This document shows, one piece after another, positions 5,138 through 53,918 of a stretch of DNA of 64,000 nt. The translations under genes were made by a program, and so were the position numbers. Numbering within the stretch: the stretch's first letter is position 1; each line of letters opens with the position of its first letter. The stretch lies in assembly GCA_014843695.1 (NCBI GenBank), contig CM026400.1:41059295-41123294 (forward strand), written 5' to 3'. The DNA comes from Archivesica marissinica. Taxonomy: Eukaryota > Mollusca > Bivalvia > Venerida > Vesicomyidae. Below the pieces are notes generated by a model, which was given only the letters and a program-made list of their open reading frames with translations, was not told the DNA's origin and searched no databases.

Positions 5138-5402
5138 CTACATGGTAGTGTGGCAAGTGTATATGTGTATGTGGTAGTGTGGCAAGTGTATAGGTGTATG
5201 TGGTAGTGTGGCAAGTTTATAGGTGTATGTGGTAGTATGGCAAGTATATAGGTGTATGTGGTAGTGTGACAAGTGTGTATGTGTATGTGGTAGTGTGGCA
5301 AGTGTATAGGTGTATGTGGTAGTGTGGCAAGTGTATAGGTGTGTGTGGTAGTATGGCAAGTGTATATGTGTATGTGGTAGTGTGGCAAGTGTATAGGTGT
5401 AT
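5138..5402. repeat. 29-bp minisatellite, left part (split by transposon)
   Basis: Tandem 29-bp units containing GTGTATGTGGTAGTGTGGCA. The same array resumes at 9738 after the inserted transposon, in register at GTGTAT / TATGTGG, so the two parts were one array before insertion. Confidence 0.95.
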
Positions 5403-5700
5403 TAGTCCGGTCAATATATAGATGGACCCACCACAAATTGCAACAGAAAGTTTGTATACGTTTTTGTCATCAGGAAGGTCACTAGAATGACATACTAAAA
5501 ATCTACCAAAATCTACACAGGCGAAGTTAGTTATTTTCACCCAAATCCAAGATGGCCGCCGTAAAACCTTATTTTTCGATATCTTCGCTTCTAATGAACA
5601 TTTTCTCATTATGTTAAATTCTAAATTAGGGTTTTTAATATCAATGAATCTGTTGACATATATGCCATGCACATTGAAGTAATATTTCCTTTGCATTTAC
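5403..5700 (+). repeat. Left terminal inverted repeat of the transposon
   Basis: About 300 bp from TAGTCCGGTCAA, including CCACCACAAATTGCAACAG, a CCAAGATGGCCGCC motif and TTTTTCGATATCTTCG. It matches 9432-9737 in reverse complement with few differences, apart from a ~10-bp length difference just inside the tip. Similarity fades after TTTGCATT near 5700. Confidence 0.92.
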
Positions 5701-5931
5701 CAAAAATATCAAATTTACATGGATAAATTTGGTACACAGCAACTGTGAATTTGCAATCGATGGCAGCTTGACGAGTTTTTCAACGACAACTGGAAGGCGT
5801 TTCATTTCAGGATTTCATCATGTAATACATTTCAGGTTAGATCGTTGTGATCTGTGGTACCAATATGACTGGTGTTATAAATCATGCTTAGTTAAGATAC
5901 ATGTAATTACCGTACCATCATTCTAGTAGAG

Positions 5932-7555
5932 TCACTAAATAAGCACGGATTCTGCTGCTCATATTCAGAGGTCATGAAGTTTGCTCGCAGTTCTGCAAAA
6001 GCACAGAGAACCGATATTCCTAGTTACACAGCAGATAATTTTGTGCAGTATGTGGCAGATAATGTCGACCACAATATCAGGACAATCGACGGCATGAATA
6101 CATTCCATGGTATGGGCATGATTGCAACAATTACACCTGCAACGAAGAATAATCAACGAATTCCACGTGTTGTGGTCAGTGCAGCAGACATCTCGGCTAT
6201 TGGTACTGTCAACATAGTGCCATTCATTCCCAGAAAGCAATGGACTGAAATCCATATTGTATGAAAAGCTTTCTGATTTCACTGATGACAAAACAGCTAT
6301 TCTTGATGAGTTGTGGAAAGTGTCATTGTCTGTGCGTTCGCCAAGATCAGCTTGGTCTGGCATGATGCAGATGGTCCACACTGGTGACCACCCAGGAAAA
6401 TCATCAGTATTCTTCCTGCCAATGATAGACATGGATCCGGGTAACATGTCATGTGTGAAGTCAACTCTTCTGTTCATATGTGATCATGCGAGGCGTTACA
6501 ATATAATACCGATTGTAACCTTCGATCAGCCACTTTGGTGGAAGGCCTTACAAGTGATACACAGTTCACCAGAGAACAATCCACTACGTTCCATTGTGCT
6601 GAGGTTAGGAGGATTTCACACACTGATGAGTTTCATTGGAAGTATTGGTCACATTATGGAAGGATCAGGGTTGCATGAACTCCTTGAAACAATATATGCA
6701 AACAATACAGTCATACACATGCTTAATGGGAAGGCAATACAGCGAGCAGTTCGGGGCCTACTGCTTGTTGATGGAGCATTGAATGCTATGATTGTTTCTG
6801 CAGAGTTCCACATCAAGCCACCATGCATGATCACACACGATGGTACCGGTACAGATGAGAGTGTTGTCCAAGAAGAACCTGCCTCTTCATCAGTGACTCA
6901 AAGTGATCAGAGTGGAGATGCTACACTGACTGACCTTGACAAAATAGGTAATCTACACGACAGTCTTCTGACAGGAAGGTTGACTGTTGAGGAAGCCTGT
7001 GCAGCCGAGGAATTGATCAGAGTCACAGATAGGCTACATATGAGAAAGCAGTACATGCAGACTTCACGCACAGCAACTGTGTGGCTACAGTTCATGGAGA
7101 TGATGTAAATCCTTTGTAAGTTCGTGAAAGCCGAACGACTGGGGAACTGGGCTCTCCATATGAAAGCTATGCATGAAATGCTACCATACTGAGCTGCTTC
7201 TGGGCATAACTTGTATACCAAAAGCCTCCATATCTACTTACAGCAGATGACAAAACTCCCCCAGACGTCCCCATAAGTATACAGACAGTTCAGCGAAGGA
7301 CTCCACGTTGTGCGTAGGTCTGATCGATTGTGGGCAGGACTTTCAGCTGACCTTGTGAATGAACAAGTATTGATGAGGAGTATGAAAACTAGTGATGGTT
7401 TGACCAGAGGACGTGGCATGTCAGAGACACAACGGCTTTTGTGACTGCTGTCACATCCACATTGTTCTGAGGTGAATAACGCAATGCAGCAACTAACTGG
7501 TGTTAATTACACTACAAGTGATCAACACAAAGATTTAACAAAAGCCAGACATGAG
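5932..7555 (+). pseudogene. Transposon gene, N-terminal half (frameshifted, stop-containing)
   Basis: Coding similarity starts without a Met near 5932 (SLNKHGFCCSYSEV, frame 1) and runs on as the open stretch 5974-6264, which contains ADNVDHNIRTIDGMNTFHGM. The frame then slips near 6255 into frame 2 (6257-7108). That part carries RSAWSGMM, FDQPLWWKA, RLGGFHTLMSFIGSIG and MEGSGL. Reading through stops at 7106, 7190, 7274 and 7442 keeps recognisable sequence (AERLGNWALH, SGHNLYTKS, GLHVVRRSDRLWAG, MKTSDGLTRGRGMSETQR) up to a further slip near 7551. Conserved-block names come from memory of the family. The function of this half is unknown and no catalytic motif is recognised. It is the upstream part of the same ancestral frame as the nuclease-like part at 7551-8998. 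Confidence 0.82.
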
Positions 7556-8998
7556 TGACACTTGTGAACTGTTAACATTCCTGGAGTCACGAAATCCATT
7601 CTGTGACAACAGCAGTTTGCGAAGTATTGCCACTGGTGTGAACGCTGCCAACAGAGTGAATGTTGATAAGGCAAGAGATATAGGAGGCAAAATCCTGACA
7701 TCAATGTTGAACAAGTCAGTTCTTGATTACACATTCAAGAAGAAGGATCAAGTAGTGACACCGAGTGCATCATCTGTCAAAATCCACAATGAAACAATCC
7801 ACATCTACCCAATGTTATTGTTTCAAAGGCTTATCACTGCGGGAACACGGACTGATCAGCTGCAAGATATATTCCAGTTTGAACTTTGCAGTTACCCAAC
7901 ATCCATTTTTGAAGCTAAATATGTAATGCGGGCTGCCAATAAACCGGCCCTGGCAGATGATCTGTGGACTCTGATGCCTGAAACAGTTTCTAAACCAATT
8001 GGCGACAGTCAATATGTTTTGGATGGGGGTGCCCTTCTGCACCGAATACCATGGTCAAGTGGAACAACGTACACTCTCTTATGCAAACAATACACAGACT
8101 ATGTCACTAGAAAATATGGACAAGCAGTAATTGTGTTTGATGGATATGGAGAGAAGAACTGTCCACGAAGGACAGTGCTCAGCAGAGACGAACAGGTGGA
8201 CGAGTAGGAGCAACTGTGGAGTTCTCGAGTGACATGGTAATGAAATCAAAGAAGGATGATTTTTTGTCAAACAAGCACAATAAGCAGAAATTTATAAACT
8301 TGCTAAGTGACCGTCTACAACAAGCTGGATGTCAAACACATCATGCAGATGGCGATGCTGATCTTCTGATTGTGCAAACTGCTGCAGGTTGCGCTGCCAC
8401 TGGTCAAACAATGTTGGTAGGAGATGACACAGACCTTCTTGTGCTCCTTTACTATCATATCAAGGATGATTCCCATAACATATTCTACAGGCCAGAACCA
8501 AAGGCAACCCAAAAGAATATCACACGATGTTGGGACATCAAAACCGTGCAGAGAATCCTGGGAAGGGGAGTCTGTAACCATCTTCTATTAGCACATGCCA
8601 TATTAGGATGCGACACCACATCAAGGGTGTTTGGCATTGGGAAAGGGGTTGTTATGAAGCTTATTCGTAATGACCCTTATTTTCAGTTACACGCTGGTGT
8701 GTTCCTCGATAAAACTGCAACCCAGAGGGAGATAGTGAGTGCTGGTGAAAAGTGTCTTGTGAGCATTTTAAAAGGTGCCCCGGAAGACACCCTTGATAAG
8801 CTGAGATTACAGCGTTTCCACCATAAAGTAGCTACGAGCAAAACGTGTGTGCAGCCTGAAACACTGCCCCCAACATCAGCAGCAGGCAAGTATCACAGCC
8901 TGCGTGTATTTCACCAAGTTCAGGTATGGAAGGGAGTTCCAAACTTGTCTCCTTGTGTCTATGGCTGGGCTGTGCAGGATGGGAAATTGCTGATGTGA
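7551..8998 (+). pseudogene. Transposon gene, C-terminal half: FEN1/XPG/PIN-like nuclease
   Basis: Two open stretches, 7551-8207 (218 codons, frame 3) and 8216-8998 (260 codons, frame 2), are parts of one protein broken by a stop and shift near 8205. Their ordered motifs resemble flap/5'-nuclease enzymes: YVLDGGALLHR (residues 155-165 of the first part) like the first catalytic-Asp strand; VIVFDGYGEK (193-202) like the FEN1 VFDG..P..K segment; GDAD (46-49 of the second part) in place of GEAEA; GDDTDLLVLL (69-78) in place of the TEDSD.LLFG type; and HAILGCDTTSRVFGIGK (127-143) in place of the LLGCDY...PGIG helix-hairpin turn. Each acidic position expected to bind metal is occupied. The match is by eye; family assignment is inference. 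It probably acts on transposon DNA, either as the transposase or as an accessory nuclease. Confidence 0.78.
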
Positions 8999-9002
8999 TC
9001 TT

Positions 9003-9125
9003 GAAGTGGCTCCCAAAACACTATTTGAAGTTGTACGATGTAACTGTAAGTCAGGATGTGAAACTCTACGTTGCACATGTCGCAAACTGCATGTGGAGAG
9101 TGTAGGGGTATATGCTCAAACATGA
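9003..9125 (+). pseudogene. Cys-rich (CXC-like) C-terminal tail of the transposon protein
   Basis: After a 1-base slip near 8990, frame 3 reads EVAPKTLFEVVRCNCKSG, then C, then ETLRCTCRK before a TGA at 9123-9125. The spacing CNCK..C...LRCTCRK resembles one half of a tesmin/TSO1-type CXC zinc-binding motif; in relatives I recall, this tail continues with further Cys residues. A downstream stretch reading EDVGDDEDLP near 9137 may be the decayed end. Likely a DNA-binding tail of the nuclease-like protein. Confidence 0.6.
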
Positions 9126-9431
9126 CTACCCAAATCGCCGAAGATGTCGGAGATGATGAGGATTTGCCATTGGCCATCATCCAGATTTGTCGTCGTTTTA
9201 GTGACATTTTGATATACTAGTATGTTATATCGTACATTTTATCATTGTTTAAACAGTAGGCCTATGTCTCTCTTTGTTCTGTTGTCTCATGTGGGATTTT
9301 ATGTGACCTACATGTATGTGTTCTTGCTCTATATTGCAAAGTTTGGTACACGACATGTCAGTCAAGTGATAGATATGATAGTTAATGTTTTTTTCGGGGT
9401 AAAAAATGGTATTTTGTTGCATAAATTGGAT

Positions 9432-9737
9432 GAATGCAAAATAAATATTATTTCAATGTGCAAGCTATGTATGTCAGCATATTCATTGTTATTAAAAACC
9501 CTAATTTAGAACTTAACATAATGAGAAAATGTTCATTAGAAGCGAAGATATCGAAAAATAAGGTTTTACGGCGGCCATCTTGGATTTGGGTGAAAATAAC
9601 TAACTTCGCCTGTGTAGATTTTGGTAGATTTTTAGTACGTCATTCTAGTGACCTTCCTGATGACAAAAACGTATACAAACTTTCTGTTGCAATTTGTGGT
9701 GGGTTGAGGTGCTGTGGGCGATATTTTGACTGGACTA
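9432..9737 (-). repeat. Right terminal inverted repeat of the transposon
   Basis: Reverse complement of the left repeat. It ends GACTGGACTA at 9737 and is followed at once by TAT and the resumed 29-bp array. It is a few bases longer than the left copy near the tip (GAGGTGCTGTGGGCG region). The near identity of two ~300-bp arms suggests a fairly recent insertion, despite the frame breaks in the gene. Confidence 0.92.
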
Positions 9738-12700
9738 TATGTGGTAGTGTGACAAGTGTATAGGTGTATGTGGTAGTGTGACAAGTGTATAGGTGTATGT
9801 GGTAGTGTGACAAGTGTATAGGTGTATGTGGTAGTGTGGCAGGTGCATAGGTGTATGTGGTAGTGTGGCTAGTGTATATGTGTATGTGGTAGTGTGGCAC
9901 GTGTATATGTGTATGTGGTAGTGTGGCAAGTGTATAGGTGTATGTGGTAGTGTGACAAGTAAATAGGTGTATGTGGTAGTGTGGCAAGTGTATAGGTGTA
10001 TGTGGTAGTATGACAAGTGTATATGTGTATGTGGTAGTGTGGCAAGTGTATAGGTGTATGTGGTAGTATGACAAGTGTATAGGTGTATGTGGTAGTGTGA
10101 CAAGTGTATATGTGTATGTGGTAGTATGAAAAGTGTATAGGTGTATGTGGTAGTGTGGCTAGTGTATATGTGTATGTGGTAGTGTGGCAAGTGTATGTGG
10201 TAGTTTGGCAAGTGTATATGTGTATGTGGTAGTGTGGCAAGTGTATGTGGTAGTGTGGCAAGTGTATATATGTATGTAGTAGTGTGGCAAGTGTATGTGG
10301 TAGTATGACAAGTGTATATGTGTATGTGTGTAGTGTGACAAGTGCATATGTGTATGTGATAGTGTGGCACGTGTATATGTGTATGTGGTAGTGTAGCAAG
10401 TGTATAGGTGTATGTGGTAGTGTGGCAAGTGTATAAGTGTATGTGGTCGTGTGGCAAGTGTATATGTGTATGTGGTAGTGTGGCAAGTGTATATGTGTAT
10501 GTGGTAGTGTGGCAAGTGTATATGTGTATGTGGTAGTGTGGCAAGTGTATATGTGTATGTGGTAGTGTGGCAAGTGTATATGTGTATGTGGTAGTGTGGC
10601 AAGTGTATAGATGTATGTGGTAGTGTGGCAAGTGTATAGGTGTATGTGGTAGTGTGGCAAGTGTATAGGTGTATGTGGTAGTGTGGCAAGTGTATATGTG
10701 TATGTGGTAGTGTGGCAAGTGTATATATGTATGTGGTAGTGTGGCAAGTGTATAGGTGTATGTGGTAGTGTGACAAGTGTATATGTGTATGTGGTAGTGT
10801 GGCAAGTGTATAGGTGTATGTGGTAGTGTGGCAAGTGTATATGTGTATGTGGTAGTGTGGCAAGTGTATATGTATATGTGGTAGTGTGGCAAGTGTATAG
10901 GTGTATGTGGTAGTGTGGCAAGTGTATATGTGTATGTGGTAGTGTGGCAAGTGTATATGTATATGTGGTAGTGTGGCAAGTGTATAGGTGTATGTGGTAG
11001 TGTGGCAAGTGTATAGGTGTATGTGGTAGTGTGGCAAGTGTATTGGTGTATGTGGTAGTGTGACAAGTGTATGTGGTAGTGTGGCAAGTGTATAGGTGTA
11101 TGTGGTAGTGTGGCAAGTGTATAGGTGTATGTGGTAGTGTGGCAAGTGTATATGTGTATGTGGTAGTGTGACAAGTGTATGTGGTAGTGTGGCAAGTGTA
11201 TAGATGTATGTGGTAATGTGGCAAGTCTATGTGGTAGTGTGGCAAGTGCATGGGTGTATGTGGTAGTGTGAAAAGTGTATATGTGTATGTGGTAGTGTGG
11301 CAAATGTGTGTGGTAGTGTGGCAAGTATATATGTGTATGTGGTAGTGTGACAAGTGTATGTGGTAGTGTGACAAGTGTGTATGTGTATGTGGTAGTGTGG
11401 CAAGTGTATGTGGTAATGTGGCAAGTGTATGTGGTAGTGTTGCAAGTGTATGTGGTAGTGTGACAAATGTTTATGTGTATGTGGTAGTGTGGCAAGTGTA
11501 TGTGGTAGTGTGACAAGTGTATGTGGTAGTGTGACAAGTGTATTTGTGTATGTGGTAGTGTGGCAAGTGTATGTGGTAGTGTGGCAAGTGTATGTGGTAG
11601 TGTTGCAAGTGTATGTGGTAGTGTGACAAGTGTATATGTGTATGTGGTAATGTGGCAAGTGTATAGGTGTATGTGGTAGTGTGGCAAGTGTATATGTGTA
11701 TGTGTTAGTGTGGCAAGTGTATAGGTGTATGTGGTAGGGTGGCAAGTGTATATGTGTATGTGGTAGTGTGACAAGTGTATATGCGTATGTGGTAGTGTGA
11801 CAAGTGTATATGTGTATGTGGTAGTGTGACAAGTGTATATGTGTATGTGGTAGTGTGACAAGTGTATATGTGTATGTGGTAGTGTGACAAGTGTATATGT
11901 GTATGTGGTAGTGTGACAAGTGTATGTGGTAGTGTGGCAAGTGTATATGTGTATGTGGTAGTGTGGCAAGTGTATGTGGTAGTGTGACAAGTGTATATGT
12001 GGTAGTGTGACAAGTGTATATGTGTATGTGGTAGTGTGACAAGTGTATATGTATATGTGGTAGTGTGACAAGTGTATATGTGTATGTGGTAGTGTGGCAA
12101 GTGTATATGTGTATGTGTTAGTGTGGCAAGTGTATAGGTGTATGTGGTAGTGTGGCAAATGTATATGTGTATGTGGTAGTGTGACAAGTGTGTATGTGTA
12201 TGTGGTAGTGTGACAAGTGTATATGTGTATGTGGTAGTGTGACAAGTGTATATGTGTATGTGGTAGTGTGACAAGTGTATATGTGTATGTGATAGTGTGA
12301 CAAGTGTATATGTGAATATGTGTATGTGGTATTGTGACAAGTGTATATGTGTATGTGGTAGTGTGACAAGTGTATATGTATATGTGGTAGTGTGACAAGT
12401 GTATATGTGTATGTGGTAGTGTGACAAGTATATATGTGTATGTGGTAGTGTGGCAAGTGTATATGTGTATGTGGTAGTGTGACAAGTGTATATGTGTATG
12501 TGGTAGTGTGGCAAGTGTATATGTGTATGTGGTAGTGTGGCAAGTGTATATGTGTATGTGGTAGTGTGACAAGTGTATATGTGTATGTGGTAGTGTGGCA
12601 AGTGTATATGTGTATGTGGTAGTGTGGCAAGTGTATATGTGTATGTGGTAATGTGACAAGTGTATATGTGTATGTGGTAGTGTGACAAGTGTATATGTGT

Positions 12701-16296: not shown

Positions 16297-16690
16297 TTCT
16301 TTGCTATACTAGGCGGGTGGAACTGGATACACACATGTCAAATATTGAAGCCCTCAGCATTGACAAGCCACGCGGGAAGTCTCGAAAACGATCGGTGGTA
16401 TTAATGTGCATACGATGCGTTATTTTAATTTGTAGAACGAGTTTAAATTATGATCACGTGACTAGAATTTGAGCGGGTGGGGACGTAAACCCCCCGCACG
16501 AGTTTCGGTCAAGTTCGGCATTCATTTTTTTTTCAATAAAAGACATGGTTAGCTATAAAAGATTTTAATATTTTCGAATACATTTAAAATATCTTTGATT
16601 TCATTTGTTTACCGAGGCACTTGGGTAATAATGGTTTTATCATGAGTACAGTTGCATGATAACCGTCATGATTTTGATACATCAACATCA

Positions 16691-16980
16691 GCTGTAGTCC
16701 AGTGGTAACACGCTGGACTGGTAATCCAGGGATCGCAGGTTCGATCCCCCCCGTCTGACCCTAAAAAAATTAACAGTCTTTCAGATGGGACGTTAAACCG
16801 AGGTCTCGTGTTGGTGCTTTACACCGTGCACGTACAAGAACCAGAGAAGGCTCTGGAATGGGTCTCTGTCTGTATCATAGCACTATCCTCCAAAATCTAA
16901 AATGACTAATCTCTTCAGGAGGCGTCGCTCATATGGGCAACCGGTAGCGACGATAAATAAACGTAAAACACACACATCAG
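16691..16980 (+). mobile_element. SINE-B, plus copy
   Basis: GCTGTAGTCCAGTGGTAACA head, GGTTCGATCCCCCCCGTCTG B box, body with CTTTCAGATGGGACGTTAAA and GGAGGCGTCGCTCATATGG, ending GCGACGATAAATAAACG and an (AC)-rich tail. Good full-length copy. 16,981-17,221 shows nothing recognisable. Confidence 0.9.
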
Positions 16981-32800: not shown

Positions 32801-35800
32801 TATAAGGAACCACTGTTGGTAGAACTATGGGGACATACACAGACCACACCATATACCCCAGCATTATAAGGAACCACTGTTGGTAGAACTATGGGGACAT
32901 ACACAGACCACATCATACACCCCAGCATTATAAGGAACCACTGTTGGTAGAACTATGGGGACATACACAGACCACACCATATACCCCAGCATTATAAGGA
33001 NNNNNNNNNNNNNNNNNNNNNNNNNNNNNNNNNNNNNNNNNNNNNNNNNNNNNNNNNNNNNNNNNNNNNNNNNNNNNNNNNNNNNNNNNNNNNNNNNNNN
33101 NNNNNNNNNNNNNNNNNNNNNNNNNNNNNNNNNNNNNNNNNNNNNNNNNNNNNNNNNNNNNNNNNNNNNNNNNNNNNNNNNNNNNNNNNNNNNNNNNNNN
33201 NNNNNNNNNNNNNNNNNNNNNNNNNNNNNNNNNNNNNNNNNNNNNNNNNNNNNNNNNNNNNNNNNNNNNNNNNNNNNNNNNNNNNNNNNNNNNNNNNNNN
33301 NNNNNNNNNNNNNNNNNNNNNNNNNNNNNNNNNNNNNNNNNNNNNNNNNNNNNNNNNNNNNNNNNNNNNNNNNNNNNNNNNNNNNNNNNNNNNNNNNNNN
33401 NNNNNNNNNNNNNNNNNNNNNNNNNNNNNNNNNNNNNNNNNNNNNNNNNNNNNNNNNNNNNNNNNNNNNNNNNNNNNNNNNNNNNNNNNNNNNNNNNNNN
33501 NNNNNNNNNNNNNNNNNNNNNNNNNNNNNNNNNNNNNNNNNNNNNNNNNNNNNNNNNNNNNNNNNNNNNNNNNNNNNNNNNNNNNNNNNNNNNNNNNNNN
33601 NNNNNNNNNNNNNNNNNNNNNNNNNNNNNNNNNNNNNNNNNNNNNNNNNNNNNNNNNNNNNNNNNNNNNNNNNNNNNNNNNNNNNNNNNNNNNNNNNNNN
33701 NNNNNNNNNNNNNNNNNNNNNNNNNNNNNNNNNNNNNNNNNNNNNNNNNNNNNNNNNNNNNNNNNNNNNNNNNNNNNNNNNNNNNNNNNNNNNNNNNNNN
33801 NNNNNNNNNNNNNNNNNNNNNNNNNNNNNNNNNNNNNNNNNNNNNNNNNNNNNNNNNNNNNNNNNNNNNNNNNNNNNNNNNNNNNNNNNNNNNNNNNNNN
33901 NNNNNNNNNNNNNNNNNNNNNNNNNNNNNNNNNNNNNNNNNNNNNNNNNNNNNNNNNNNNNNNNNNNNNNNNNNNNNNNNNNNNNNNNNNNNNNNNNNNN
34001 CCCCAGCATTATAAGGAACCACTGTTGGTAGAACTATGGGGACATACACAGAACACACCATATACCCCAGCATTATAAGGAACCACTGTTGGTAGAACTA
34101 TGGGGACATACCCAGCCCACATCATATACCCCAGCATTATAAGGAAACACTGTTGGTAGAACTATGGGGTCATACACAGACCACACCATATACCCCAGCA
34201 TTATAAGGAACCACTGTTGGTAGAACTATGGGGACATACCCAGCCCACATCATACACCCCAGCATTATAAGGAACCACTGTTGGTAGAACTATGGGGACA
34301 TACCCAGCCCACATCATACACCCCAGCATTATAAGGAACCACTGTTGGTAGAACTATGGGGACATACCCAGCCCACATCATACACCCCAGCATTATAAGG
34401 AACCACTGTTGGTAGAACTATGGGGACATACACAGAACACACCATATACCCCAGCATTATAAGGAAACACTGTTGGTAGAACTATGGGGACATACCCAGC
34501 CCACATCATACACCCCAGCATTATAAGGAACCACTGTTGGTAGAACTATGGGGACATACACAGAACACACCATATACCCCAGCATTATAAGGAACCACTG
34601 TTGGTAGAACTATGGGGACATACCCAGCCCACATCATACACCCCAGCATTATAAGGAACCACTGTTGGTAGAACTATGGGGACATACACAGAACACACCA
34701 TATACCCCATCATTATAAGGAAACACTGTTGGTAGAACTATGGGGACATACCCAGCCCACATCATACACCCCAGCATTATAAGGAACCACTGTTGGTAGA
34801 ACTATGGGGACATACACAGAACACACCATATACCCCAGCATTATAAGGAACCACTGTTGGTAAAACTATGGGGACATACCCAGCCCACATTATACACCCC
34901 AGCATTATAAGGAACCACTGTTGGTAGAACTATGGGGTCATACACAGACCACACCATATACCCCAGCATTATAAGGAAACACTGTTGGTAGAACTATGGG
35001 GACATACACAGACCACACCATATACCCTAGCATTATAAGAAAACACTGTTGGTAGAACTATGGGGACATACACAGACCACACCATATACCCCAGCATTAT
35101 AAGGAACAACTGTTGGTAGAACTATGGGGACATACACAGACCACACCATATACCCCAGCATTATAAGGAACCACTGTTGGTAGAACTATGGGGACATACA
35201 CAGACCACATCATACACCCCAGCATTATAAGGAACCACTGTTGGTAGAACTATGGGGACATACACAGACCACACCATATACCCCAGCATTATAAGGAACC
35301 ACTGTTGGTAGAACTATGGGGACATACCAGACCACACCACCCCAGCATTATAAGGAACCACTGTTGGTAGAACTATGGGGACATACACAGACCACACCAT
35401 ATACCCCAGCATTATAAGGAACCACTGTTGGTAGAACTATGGGGACATACACAGACCACATCATACACCCCAGCATTATAAGAAACACTGTTGGTAGAAC
35501 TATGGGGACATACACAGACCACACCATATACCCCAGCATTATAAGGAACACTGTTGGTAGAACTATGGGGACATACACAGACCACACATACCCCAGCATT
35601 ATAAGGAACCACTGTTGGTAGAACTATGGGGACATACACAGACCACACCATATACCCCAGCATTATAAGGAACCACTGTTGGTAGAACTATGGGGACATA
35701 CACAGACCACACCATATACCCCAGCATTATAAGGAACCACTGTTGGTAGAACTATGGGGACATACACAGACCACACCATATACCCCAGCATTATAAGGAA

Positions 35801-38383: not shown

Positions 38384-38673
38384 GTGTGTGTTTTACGTTT
38401 ATTTATCGTCGCTACCGGTTACTCATATTAGCGACGCCTCCTGAAGAGATTAGTAATTTAGATTTTGGAGGATAGTGCATGATACAGACAGAGACCCATT
38501 ACAGAGTCTCCTCTGGTTCTTTTACGTGTACGATGTAAAGCATCGACACGAGACCTCGGTTTAACGTCCCATCTGAAAGACTGTTAATTGTATTAGGGTC
38601 AGACGGGGGATCGAACCTGCGATCCCTGGATTACCAGTCCAGCGTGTGAACCACTGGACTACAGATCCGTCAG
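38384..38673 (-). mobile_element. SINE-B, minus copy
   Basis: Reverse-complement order: TTTATTTATCGTCGCTACCG, GACGCCTCCTGAAGAG, CGAGACCTCGGTTTAACGTC, CGGGGGATCGAACCTGCGAT (B box) and CCACTGGACTACAGATCCGT (head). Full length. Confidence 0.9.
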
Positions 38674-49838: not shown

Positions 49839-52028
49839 ATGATGCGATCTTACAATACTGTAAACCAGATTAATGCAAACAGGAATGGTGCGATCTTACA
49901 CTACTGTAAACGAGATTAATGCAAGATGAATGGTGCGATCTTACACTACTGTAAACCAGATTAATGCAAACAGAATGGTGCGATCTTACACTACTGTAAA
50001 CGAGATTAATGCAAGATGAATGGTGCGATCTTACACTACTGTAAACCAGATTAATGCAAACAGAATGGTGCGATCTTACACTACTGTAAACGAGATTAAT
50101 GCAAGATGAATGGTGCGATCTTACACTACTGTAAACCAGATTAATGCAAACAGAATGGTGCGATCTTACACTACTGTAAACGAGATTAATGCAAGATGAA
50201 TGGTGCGATCTTACACTACTGTAAACCAGATTAATGCAAACAGAATGGTGCGATCTTACACTACTGTAAACCAGATTAATGCAAACAGAATGCTGCGATC
50301 TTACACTACTGTAAACCAGATTAATGCAAACAGAATGGTGCGATCTTACACTACTGTAAACTAGATTAATGCAAGGTGAATACTGCGATCTTACACTACT
50401 GTAAACTAGATGAATGCAAGTTGAATGCTGCGGTCTTACACTACTGTAAACTAGATTAATGCAAACAGAATGGTGCGATCTTACACTACTGTAAACTAGA
50501 TTAATGCAAACAGAATGGTGCGATCTTATACTACTGTAAACTAGATAAATGCAAACAGAATGGTGCGATCTTACACTACTGTAAACTAGATTAATGCAAA
50601 CAGAATGGTGCGATCTTACACTACTGTAAACTAGATTAATGCAAACAGAATGGTGCGATCTTACACTACTGTAAACCAGAGTAATGCAAACAGAATGGTG
50701 CGATCTTACACTACTGTAAACAAGATTAATGCAAACAGAATGGTGCGATCTTACACTACTGTAAACCAGATTAATGCAAACAGAATGGTGCGATCTTACA
50801 CTACTGTAAACCAGATTAATGCAAACAGAATGGTGCGATCTTACACTACTGTAAACTAGATAAATACAAGCAGAATGGTGCGATCTTACACTACTGTAAA
50901 CTAGATAAATGCAAACAGAATGGTGCGATCTTACACTACTGTAAACCAGATTAATGCAAACAGAATGGTGCGATCTTACACTACTGTAAACCAGATTAAT
51001 GCAAACAGAATGCTGCGATCTTACACTACTGTAAACCAGATTAATGCAAACAGAATGCTGCGATCTTACACTACTGTAAACGAGATTAATGCAAACAGAA
51101 TGGTGCGATCTTACACTACTGTAAACTAGATTAATGCAAGTTGAATGCTGCGGTCTTACACTACTGTAAACTAGATTAATGCAAGGTGAATGGTACGATC
51201 TTACACTACTGTAAACCAGATTAATGCAAACAGAATGCTGCGATCTTACACTACTGTAAACTAGATTAATGCAAACAGAATGCTGCGATCTTACACTACT
51301 GTAAACTAGATTAATGCAAGGTGAATGGTGCGATCTTACACTACTGTAAACTAGATTAATGCAAGGTGAATGGTGCGATCTTACACTACTGTAAACCAGA
51401 TTAATGCAAACAGATTGGTGCGATCTTACACTACTGTAAACCAGATTAATGCAAACAAAATGGTGCGATCATACACTACTGTAAACTAGATTAATGCAAA
51501 CAGAATTCTGCGATCTTACACTACTGTAAACTAGATTAATGCAAGGTGAATGGTACGATCTTACACTACTGTAAACCAGATTAATGCAAACAGAATGGTG
51601 CGATCTTACACTACTGTAATCCGGATTAATGCAAGCGGAATGCTAAGATCGACATACACTACGGTTAACCAGATGAATGCAAGCGGAATGCTAGGGTCGA
51701 CTTACACTATGGTTAACCAGATTATTGCCAGCGGAATGCTAAGATCGACTTACACTACGGTTAACCAGATTATTGCCAGCAGAATGCTAAGATCGACTTA
51801 CACTACGGTTAACCGGATTAATGCAAGCGGAATGCTAGGGTCGACTTACACTACGGTTAACCAGATTAATGCAAGCGGAATGCTAAGATCGACTTACACT
51901 ACGGTTAACCGGATTAATGCAAGCGAAATGCTAGGGTCGACTTATACTAAGGTTAATCGGATTAATGCAAGCGGAATGCTAGTGTCGACTTACACTACGG
52001 TTAATCGAATTAATGCAAGCGGAATGCT
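49839..52028. repeat. 45-bp to 48-bp minisatellite, left part
   Basis: Up to about 51,620 the units are 45 bp (TGGTGCGATCTTACACTACT, GTAAACCAGATTAATGCAAA, CAGAA). From ~51,630 they become 48 bp (AGATCGACTTACACTACGG, TTAACCAGATTAATGCAAGC, GGAATGCTA). The change includes a GA insertion after GATC and G-for-A changes, so the second class is a derivative of the first. The array breaks at 52,028 and resumes at 55,274. Confidence 0.95.
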
Positions 52029-53918
52029 CCTGTCATTCCCACTACTGTCCACTCATCTCTCTCTGATATATTTATTTCTGTACAGGACGTCAAAGACGCT
52101 ATTTGCCTTATTGATCCAACCAAGGCAAGTGGCCCAGATGTAGTCAGTCCGAGGCTAATCAAAGAGGGTGCTAACGAACTGGCGGAGCCACTTTCACTCT
52201 TATTCAACAAACTTATTACTAACTCAGTATTTCCCGCTTGTTGGAAACAGGCAAATGTTTCACCAATCTTTAAAAAATCAGATCATTCTAAGCCTTCCAA
52301 CTACCGACCTATTTCCCTCCTCAGTTGTCTTGGAAAACTCATGGAACGCTGCGTCCACAAGTACTTATACAACTATGTTATATCGAATGATATCCTTACA
52401 ATTTTCCAATCGGGCTTTATCAAGGGTGACTATACCGTGAATCAGCTAACCTACCTCTACAACGACATTAGTAAGGCTATGGATGAGGGTAAAGAGGTGC
52501 GTGCTGTCTTCTGCGACATCTCGAAAGCTTTTGACAGAGTATGGCATCGCGGCCTTCTTCAGAAACTGTCCTCTATTGGCATACAAGGCTCTCTTCTCAA
52601 CTGGTTCTCTTCTTACCTGTCAAGCAGGAAACAAAGAGTCGTTATTGCAAATTCTTCTTCTAGTTGGTCAACAATCAACGCTGGCGTTCCTCAGGGTTCC
52701 ATTCTTGGTCCACTTCTCTTCTTAATCTATATAAATGACATCGTAGCCGATATCCAAGCAAATACACGTCTGTTTGCTGACGATACTAGTTTGTATATCA
52801 TCGTCGAAGATACTATCACGTCTGCATTGGTCCTAAACAACGATTTGTCTCGTATCAACTCATGGTCTAAGTCATGGCTAGTTTACTTCAACCCTTCCAA
52901 AACGGAGTCCGTACTATTTTCAGGTAAGCGCAACAAACCAGATCATCCCGCCATCTTCATGGATCAAGTTCCCATTCCTCAGGTCAAAACTCACAAACAT
53001 CTCGGCCTGACTCTCGCAGAAGATTCCAAATGGACGTCGCACATTTCTTCATCTGTCAACAAAGCATGGCAGAGAATAGGTATCTTTCGGTCACTAAAGT
53101 TTGTTCTATCCCGGTCAAGCCTTGAACGCATGTACATATCGTTTATTAGGCCGCTCCTAGAGTATGGTGATGTTGTCTGGGACAACTATTCTAACGAACT
53201 CAAAATCGATCTGGAAGCAGTTCAAAATGAATCAGCGAGGATTGTAGCGGGTGCCACCAAACTTTGCAATTTGGATCGGCTGCTGAGCGAATTCAATTGG
53301 GAAAGTTTGGACGACAGAAGAAGAAAACACCGACTTATTCTTTTCTTCAAGATGAAGAACAACCTCTCTCCTCTGTATCTTTCCAACCTCATTCCAGAAC
53401 ATAGCAATCAAGCGTATTCACTTCGCTCTCTCCACAATGTTCCACTCATTCACACAAACACACAATCATACGGATCTTTGTTTCTTCCGTTGACAATTCG
53501 AGAGTGGAATACACTTTCATCTGATGTAAGAAACGCATCCACAATATTTGAATTTAAGGGAAAGCTTCACAACAGGCCTAAAAAATCGTCGCCTCTCTAC
53601 AACATTGGAAATAGAAGACAACAGATCCATCACACTCGTCTTCGTCTTGGATGCAGTTCCTTAAACTACGATCTCAATCGTCGAAATATTGTGGATTCAC
53701 CGTTGTGCAGCTGTGGGGCGATTGAGACACCACTTCACTATCTTATACACTGTCCGAGATACGATAGAGCACGCCAACTCTTCTTTTCCGACCTTCCTTG
53801 TGCATTTGTAATTAACAATCTTCTGTTTGGTGATGAACATCTGTCTTTCGAAAGTAACAAGTTCCTCTTCCTGCATATCCAGGGTTACATTGCAGCAACT
53901 AAGCGATTTGACGCATAG
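52029..53918 (+). pseudogene. 5'-truncated CR1/Jockey-like LINE reverse transcriptase
   Basis: The frame is open from the array junction (CCT at 52,029) to TAG at 53,916-53,918, longer than the Met-started 525 codons at 52,341. Upstream of that Met it already reads IPTTVHSSLSDIF and DPTKASGPDVV, typical of the region before the RT palm. Relative to the 52,341 Met: FCDISKAFD (57-65, first catalytic Asp 59), GVPQGSILGPLLF (115-127) and FADDT (145-149) are intact. The C-terminus has a Cys/His cluster CSCGAIETPLHYLIHC (about 53,705-53,750). The enzyme would copy the LINE RNA at a nicked target. The endonuclease domain is absent, so the copy is dead although the RT frame is undamaged. The clade is judged by eye. 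Confidence 0.9.

Follow-up and report, generated by a model that had tools for sequence, protein, structure and literature searches.

The Academ superfamily of DNA transposons and its AcademX lineage were reportedly described by Kapitonov and Jurka in 2010 and by Kojima in 2020, and the Academ nuclease has been termed XPG-like. According to Kojima, AcademX elements encode a nuclease and produce target-site duplications (TSDs) of 3-4 bp, in the sister lineage AcademH a helicase takes the place of the nuclease and TSDs measure 9-10 bp, and these TSD lengths are seemingly related to the nuclease and the helicase (PMC10045372). Academ is listed among the superfamilies encoding a DDD/E transposase (PMC9587614), and curated bivalve Academ elements average 5,565 bp (PMC10294476). 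No text pairing XPG with Academ was found in the literature sampled, which covered the matches in part. Here we describe an element in 64,000 nt of the genome of the bivalve Archivesica marissinica (contig CM026400.1; this whole stretch is called the window). The element occupies 5403-9737 (4,335 bp) and is a DNA transposon with terminal inverted repeats (TIRs) and TAGTCC...GGACTA ends. It is a decayed copy of a transposon whose protein, of about 1,490 aa, very probably combines a DDE transposase with a FEN1/Exo1-like nuclease, both predicted from modelled folds, and it likely belongs to AcademX.

The TIRs are about 300 bp long (left, 5403..5709, + strand; right, 9421..9737, - strand, ending in GGACTA). 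An ungapped repeat finder paired 284 nt of them at 94% identity, and a gapped stretch separates this core from the left tip, TAGTCCGGTCAA, and the right tip, TTGACTGGACTA. The insertion site is a 29-bp tandem array with borders at 5402 and 9738 according to Tandem Repeats Finder. Rejoining the flanks minus exactly 3 bp restored the array phase at 168 of 174 positions, compared with 95-123 positions in phase at seven other offsets. Because only the removal of 3 bp brings the rejoined flanks back into phase with the array, the TSD is TAT (5400..5402 and 9738..9740). This confirmed a sequence-only reading of the window, which had proposed a DNA transposon with long inverted repeats and a short target duplication. 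When the element was compared with the window by BLASTN, no second copy appeared there.

In the 1.54-Gb genome of the same species the nuclease piece had at least 138 matches and the left TIR at least 40. The right TIR was matched in 29 of the 30 loci listed, 23 of which reach the same last base, and was not matched in L030, a locus of another family. For 23 copies, among them the one in the window, both ends could be read; L003, L004, L005, L008, L015 and L016, with the left end unread or the right end missing or N, were left out, and L003 and L004 have identical flanks. The TAGTCC-type TIRs and 3-bp duplication that had been suggested as a check were found in most of these copies: an exact 3-bp TSD flanked 17 of the 23 and a longer TSD none of them (TAT four times; TAA, ATA, TGT and CTA twice each; TTT, TAG, GTA, TTG and TTA once each). 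The chance expectation, estimated from base composition, is about 0.4 in 23. Among the other six, L011 is one base off, L017 shows an apparent shift that one inserted base would explain, and the tips are altered in L012, L019, L021 and L025. In length the 23 copies reach up to 5,564 bp.

Seven stretches of other families were also read in this genome. The tips TAGTCCAGTCAA were present in L061, L064, L063 and L065, with exact 3-bp TSDs in the first three (TAA, ATG and TTA, respectively) and an inexact one in L065 (TAT vs. TTT); these four are copies of two further families. TAGTCC ends were not seen in L059 and L062, and the left side of L060 consists of N. L061 and L064 (582-6144 in each) are related-family copies of 5,563 bp with open frames of 1,486 aa; they are 99.86% identical at sites with different flanks, so this family has moved recently.

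The gene inside the window copy is decayed, with five frame changes and at least four in-frame stops. By tblastn the window matched residues 387-1488 of P0241, a 1,493-aa relative, in order from 5905 to 9160 on the + strand at 66-75% identity per piece, and there was no match to residues 1-386. The transposase part begins at 5905..6228 (residues 387-494, 74% identity), which includes the first conserved Asp pair (codons 6058 and 6067), and continues at 6236..7552 (residues 497-940, 74%) with the second Asp (6524), the Glu (7361) and four in-frame stops. The linker and the start of the nuclease follow at 7527..8153 (residues 936-1144, 75%), with VLDGG (Asp codon 8022) and VFDGY (8139). The remaining nuclease piece, 8147..8995, holds the Lys (8168), the Arg (8186), GDAD (8354, 8360), GDDTDLL (8426, 8432) and GCDTTS (8612). 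A remnant of a C-terminal cysteine cluster is spread over two frames at 8994..9160 (74% identity over residues 1427-1461), and some homologs of the protein carry the source name Tesmin/TSO1-like CXC. The sequence-only reading had placed a nuclease at 7551..8998, and the predicted nuclease is indeed there, although that interval covers only the nuclease end, the C-terminal third, of one protein, whose similarity runs from 5905 to 9160 within the 5403-9737 element. The motifs it had named, VLDGG..LHR, VFDGYGEK, GDAD, GDDTDLLVLL and HAILGCDTTS..FGIGK, are all present and in that order, split by a frameshift near 8147-8153. Pfam gave no match above cut-off for four pieces of the window.

A first protein search gave 691 homologous proteins at E<=1e-3, the best 64% identical, in line with the earlier view of the protein as multi-copy, common in invertebrates and uncharacterised. 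Candidates in this search and a second one were limited to about 500 aa, so that a domain fusion could not show. A long search, restricted to proteins of about 510-1,620 aa, gave 723 at E<=1e-3, and the central and nuclease regions lay in one chain in 119 of the 120 listed. A nuclease-only element was rejected, as this long search revealed a single fused protein. A single open frame covers both domains in intact relatives, and named sources of fused relatives include Nymphon, Dysidea, Porites and Littorina (sea spider, sponge, coral and snail). Relatives were also sought in viral and species-genome contigs, where none of 92 and 162 pattern matches, respectively, was confirmed.

To follow the putative catalytic residues we used an alignment, A3, of 85 rows (81 of 88 long proteins and four shorter ones). 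D438, D441, D595 and E877 (P0241 numbering) are each kept in 84 of 85 rows, and either D438 or D441 would be the catalytic first Asp. Of the 81 rows extending into the nuclease, 80 or 81 retain each of its seven acidic positions, and the nuclease Lys and Arg are present in all 80 rows that have letters there (median column, 58%). Strict motif patterns are matched by fewer of the 88 long proteins than are the alignment columns (74-88 of 88). All these residues are kept in the seven open proteins from the genome of the window species, and the D-D-E and nuclease residues can still be read as codons in the window copy, which bears out the claim that every acidic metal-ligand position is filled.

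Structure predictions suggest what these regions are. The model of the central region, made on the relative P0214 for the 6236..7552 piece, was closest to the RNase-H-fold recombinases P element, hAT, Transib and RAG1, with the P element as best structural match, and we take this domain to be a predicted RNase-H-fold DDE transposase. The model of the nuclease, made on P0011 for the 8147..8995 piece, has a FEN1/Exo1 fold at about 10-16% identity to Exo1/FEN1-class chains, in agreement with the FEN1/XPG-type nuclease proposed earlier, and the C-terminal domain is predicted to be FEN1/Exo1-like. With the cellular repair and replication proteins FEN1, Exo1 and XPG it would share the fold, the seven acidic metal ligands, the arch-region Lys and Arg and a GIGK helix-hairpin stretch, and it differs from them in its fusion to a transposase and in its low identity. 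In PDB sequence searches Exo1 was matched marginally by A3 (E 0.026), and the other results were no nuclease with A4, one weak unrelated match with P0241 alone, and no match to P element, hAT or Transib/RAG1 transposases.

That a FEN1/PIN-type nuclease is the main protein, acting as the transposase itself by a chemistry other than DDE, had been the most far-reaching part of the sequence-only reading, and we now consider it very improbable. Relatives retain all the nuclease ligands in a domain predicted to be intact, and plain Foldseek found no significant match for the central transposase model, which speaks against our assignment. However, the same chain holds the predicted RNase-H-fold domain, its D-D-E residues are retained in the alignment, in the open proteins and in the window copy, and, according to Kojima, a helicase replaces the nuclease of AcademX in AcademH (PMC10045372). 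As the element likely belongs to the known Academ group, the nuclease probably serves as a helper, not as a new kind of transposase.

A helper role must be weighed against a captured passenger with no part in transposition, serving for example element replication or repair. Transposons do capture host genes, and accessory enzymes differ among lineages of one superfamily, as described for Kolobok (PMC9587614). The fusion in animals from sponge to snail argues against a passenger, as does the agreement between transposase and nuclease distances (r 0.72, reached in 0 of 999 permutations; 81 of the 85 rows). Non-synonymous distances (dN) between families are similar for the two domains, with synonymous distances (dS) mostly not computable; within L060-L063 the ratios were 0.36 for the transposase, 0.75 for the nuclease and 1.35 for the N-terminus, with few changes behind them. 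The identity of only about 10-16% to Exo1/FEN1-class chains also indicates that the nuclease is no recent capture, and we regard a passenger as unlikely.

The sequence-only reading gave no named superfamily for the protein, which is probably wrong, given the nuclease-encoding AcademX elements with 3-4-bp TSDs (PMC10045372). The element resembles AcademX by description: it combines a nuclease, and not the helicase of AcademH, with a predicted DDD/E transposase in the same chain, has a 3-bp TSD and a size of about 5.5 kb (the longest copy read, of 5,564 bp, lies close to the bivalve Academ mean of 5,565 bp), and lives in invertebrate hosts. The comparison was with described features, and none of those examined differed. 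This leaves some room for an unnamed superfamily near P and hAT that gained its nuclease independently of Academ, and three points weigh against our assignment: membership follows from features and not from direct sequence comparison, the P element is the best structural match, and Pfam yields only DUF6589 below threshold. P element, hAT (Hermes) and Transib/RAG1 share with our element the predicted RNase-H fold, in which a helical insertion precedes the last Glu-bearing helix. Their TSDs are 8, 8 and 5 bp, respectively, and we know of no nuclease domain in these transposases. With the P element only the predicted fold is in common, the TSD not being 8 bp, whereas nuclease and 3-bp TSD both fit AcademX, and an independent superfamily therefore appears doubtful. 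DUF6589 was found in three of six full-length relatives, always under the Pfam cut-off; in P0254, residues 629-925 of the central domain resemble it at E 3.5e-6 (26.4 bits vs. a cut-off of 27). Pfam on 30 shorter relatives gave DUF6589 in five at E<=0.01, NCBIfam on three relatives gave nothing relevant, and nothing relevant was found in a literature search on DUF6589. This family of unknown function may contain related transposases.

For an AcademX-like element with a helper nuclease, a division of labour can be proposed. The DDE domain would cut the element ends and join these to the target DNA at a stagger of 3 nt. The nuclease would process 5' strands at the element ends, either by completing second-strand cleavage during excision or by trimming 5' flaps once strand transfer is done. 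DNA binding may fall to the Cys motifs near the N-terminus and to the C-terminal cysteine cluster. In Tn7 the DDE transposase TnsB works with TnsA, a separate protein with a restriction-enzyme fold; the likeness is an analogy of mechanism only, our element having one chain and a FEN-type domain. It is conceivable, though we propose it tentatively, that two unrelated DNA-cutting enzymes act on one polypeptide, the DDE domain cutting and joining 3' ends and the FEN1/Exo1-like domain cutting the 5' strand with no hairpin, as a single-chain eukaryotic counterpart of TnsB plus TnsA, and that this goes with the 3-bp TSD. The stagger of a TSD is normally set by the transposase, and how a 5' nuclease would shorten it is hard to see.

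The surroundings of the element are rich in repeats. Tandem repeats (score >=150) cover 36,472 bases, about 57% of the window, mostly as arrays with units of 29-64 bp, each with its own sequence, and 1,000 N at 33001-34000 separate two stretches of one 64-bp array, possibly an assembly gap. Two tRNA-Thr-like sequences, at 16688-16761 (+) and 38595-38668 (-), share about 285 bp at 93% and are for this reason probably tRNA-derived short interspersed elements, not tRNA genes. A 634-aa open frame at 52014-53915 (+) contains a reverse transcriptase domain (PF00078, E 4e-34) and probably belongs to a retrotransposon of the long interspersed element type.

Taken together, the assignment of the nuclease in the window was accurate, but the element adds to a known kind of transposon, likely AcademX. 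A very common unannotated protein family of invertebrates can hereby be assigned to a transposon and given two predicted nuclease folds, an aid to the annotation of genomes, and it becomes testable why some Academ transposons carry a nuclease and others a helicase, with different TSD lengths.
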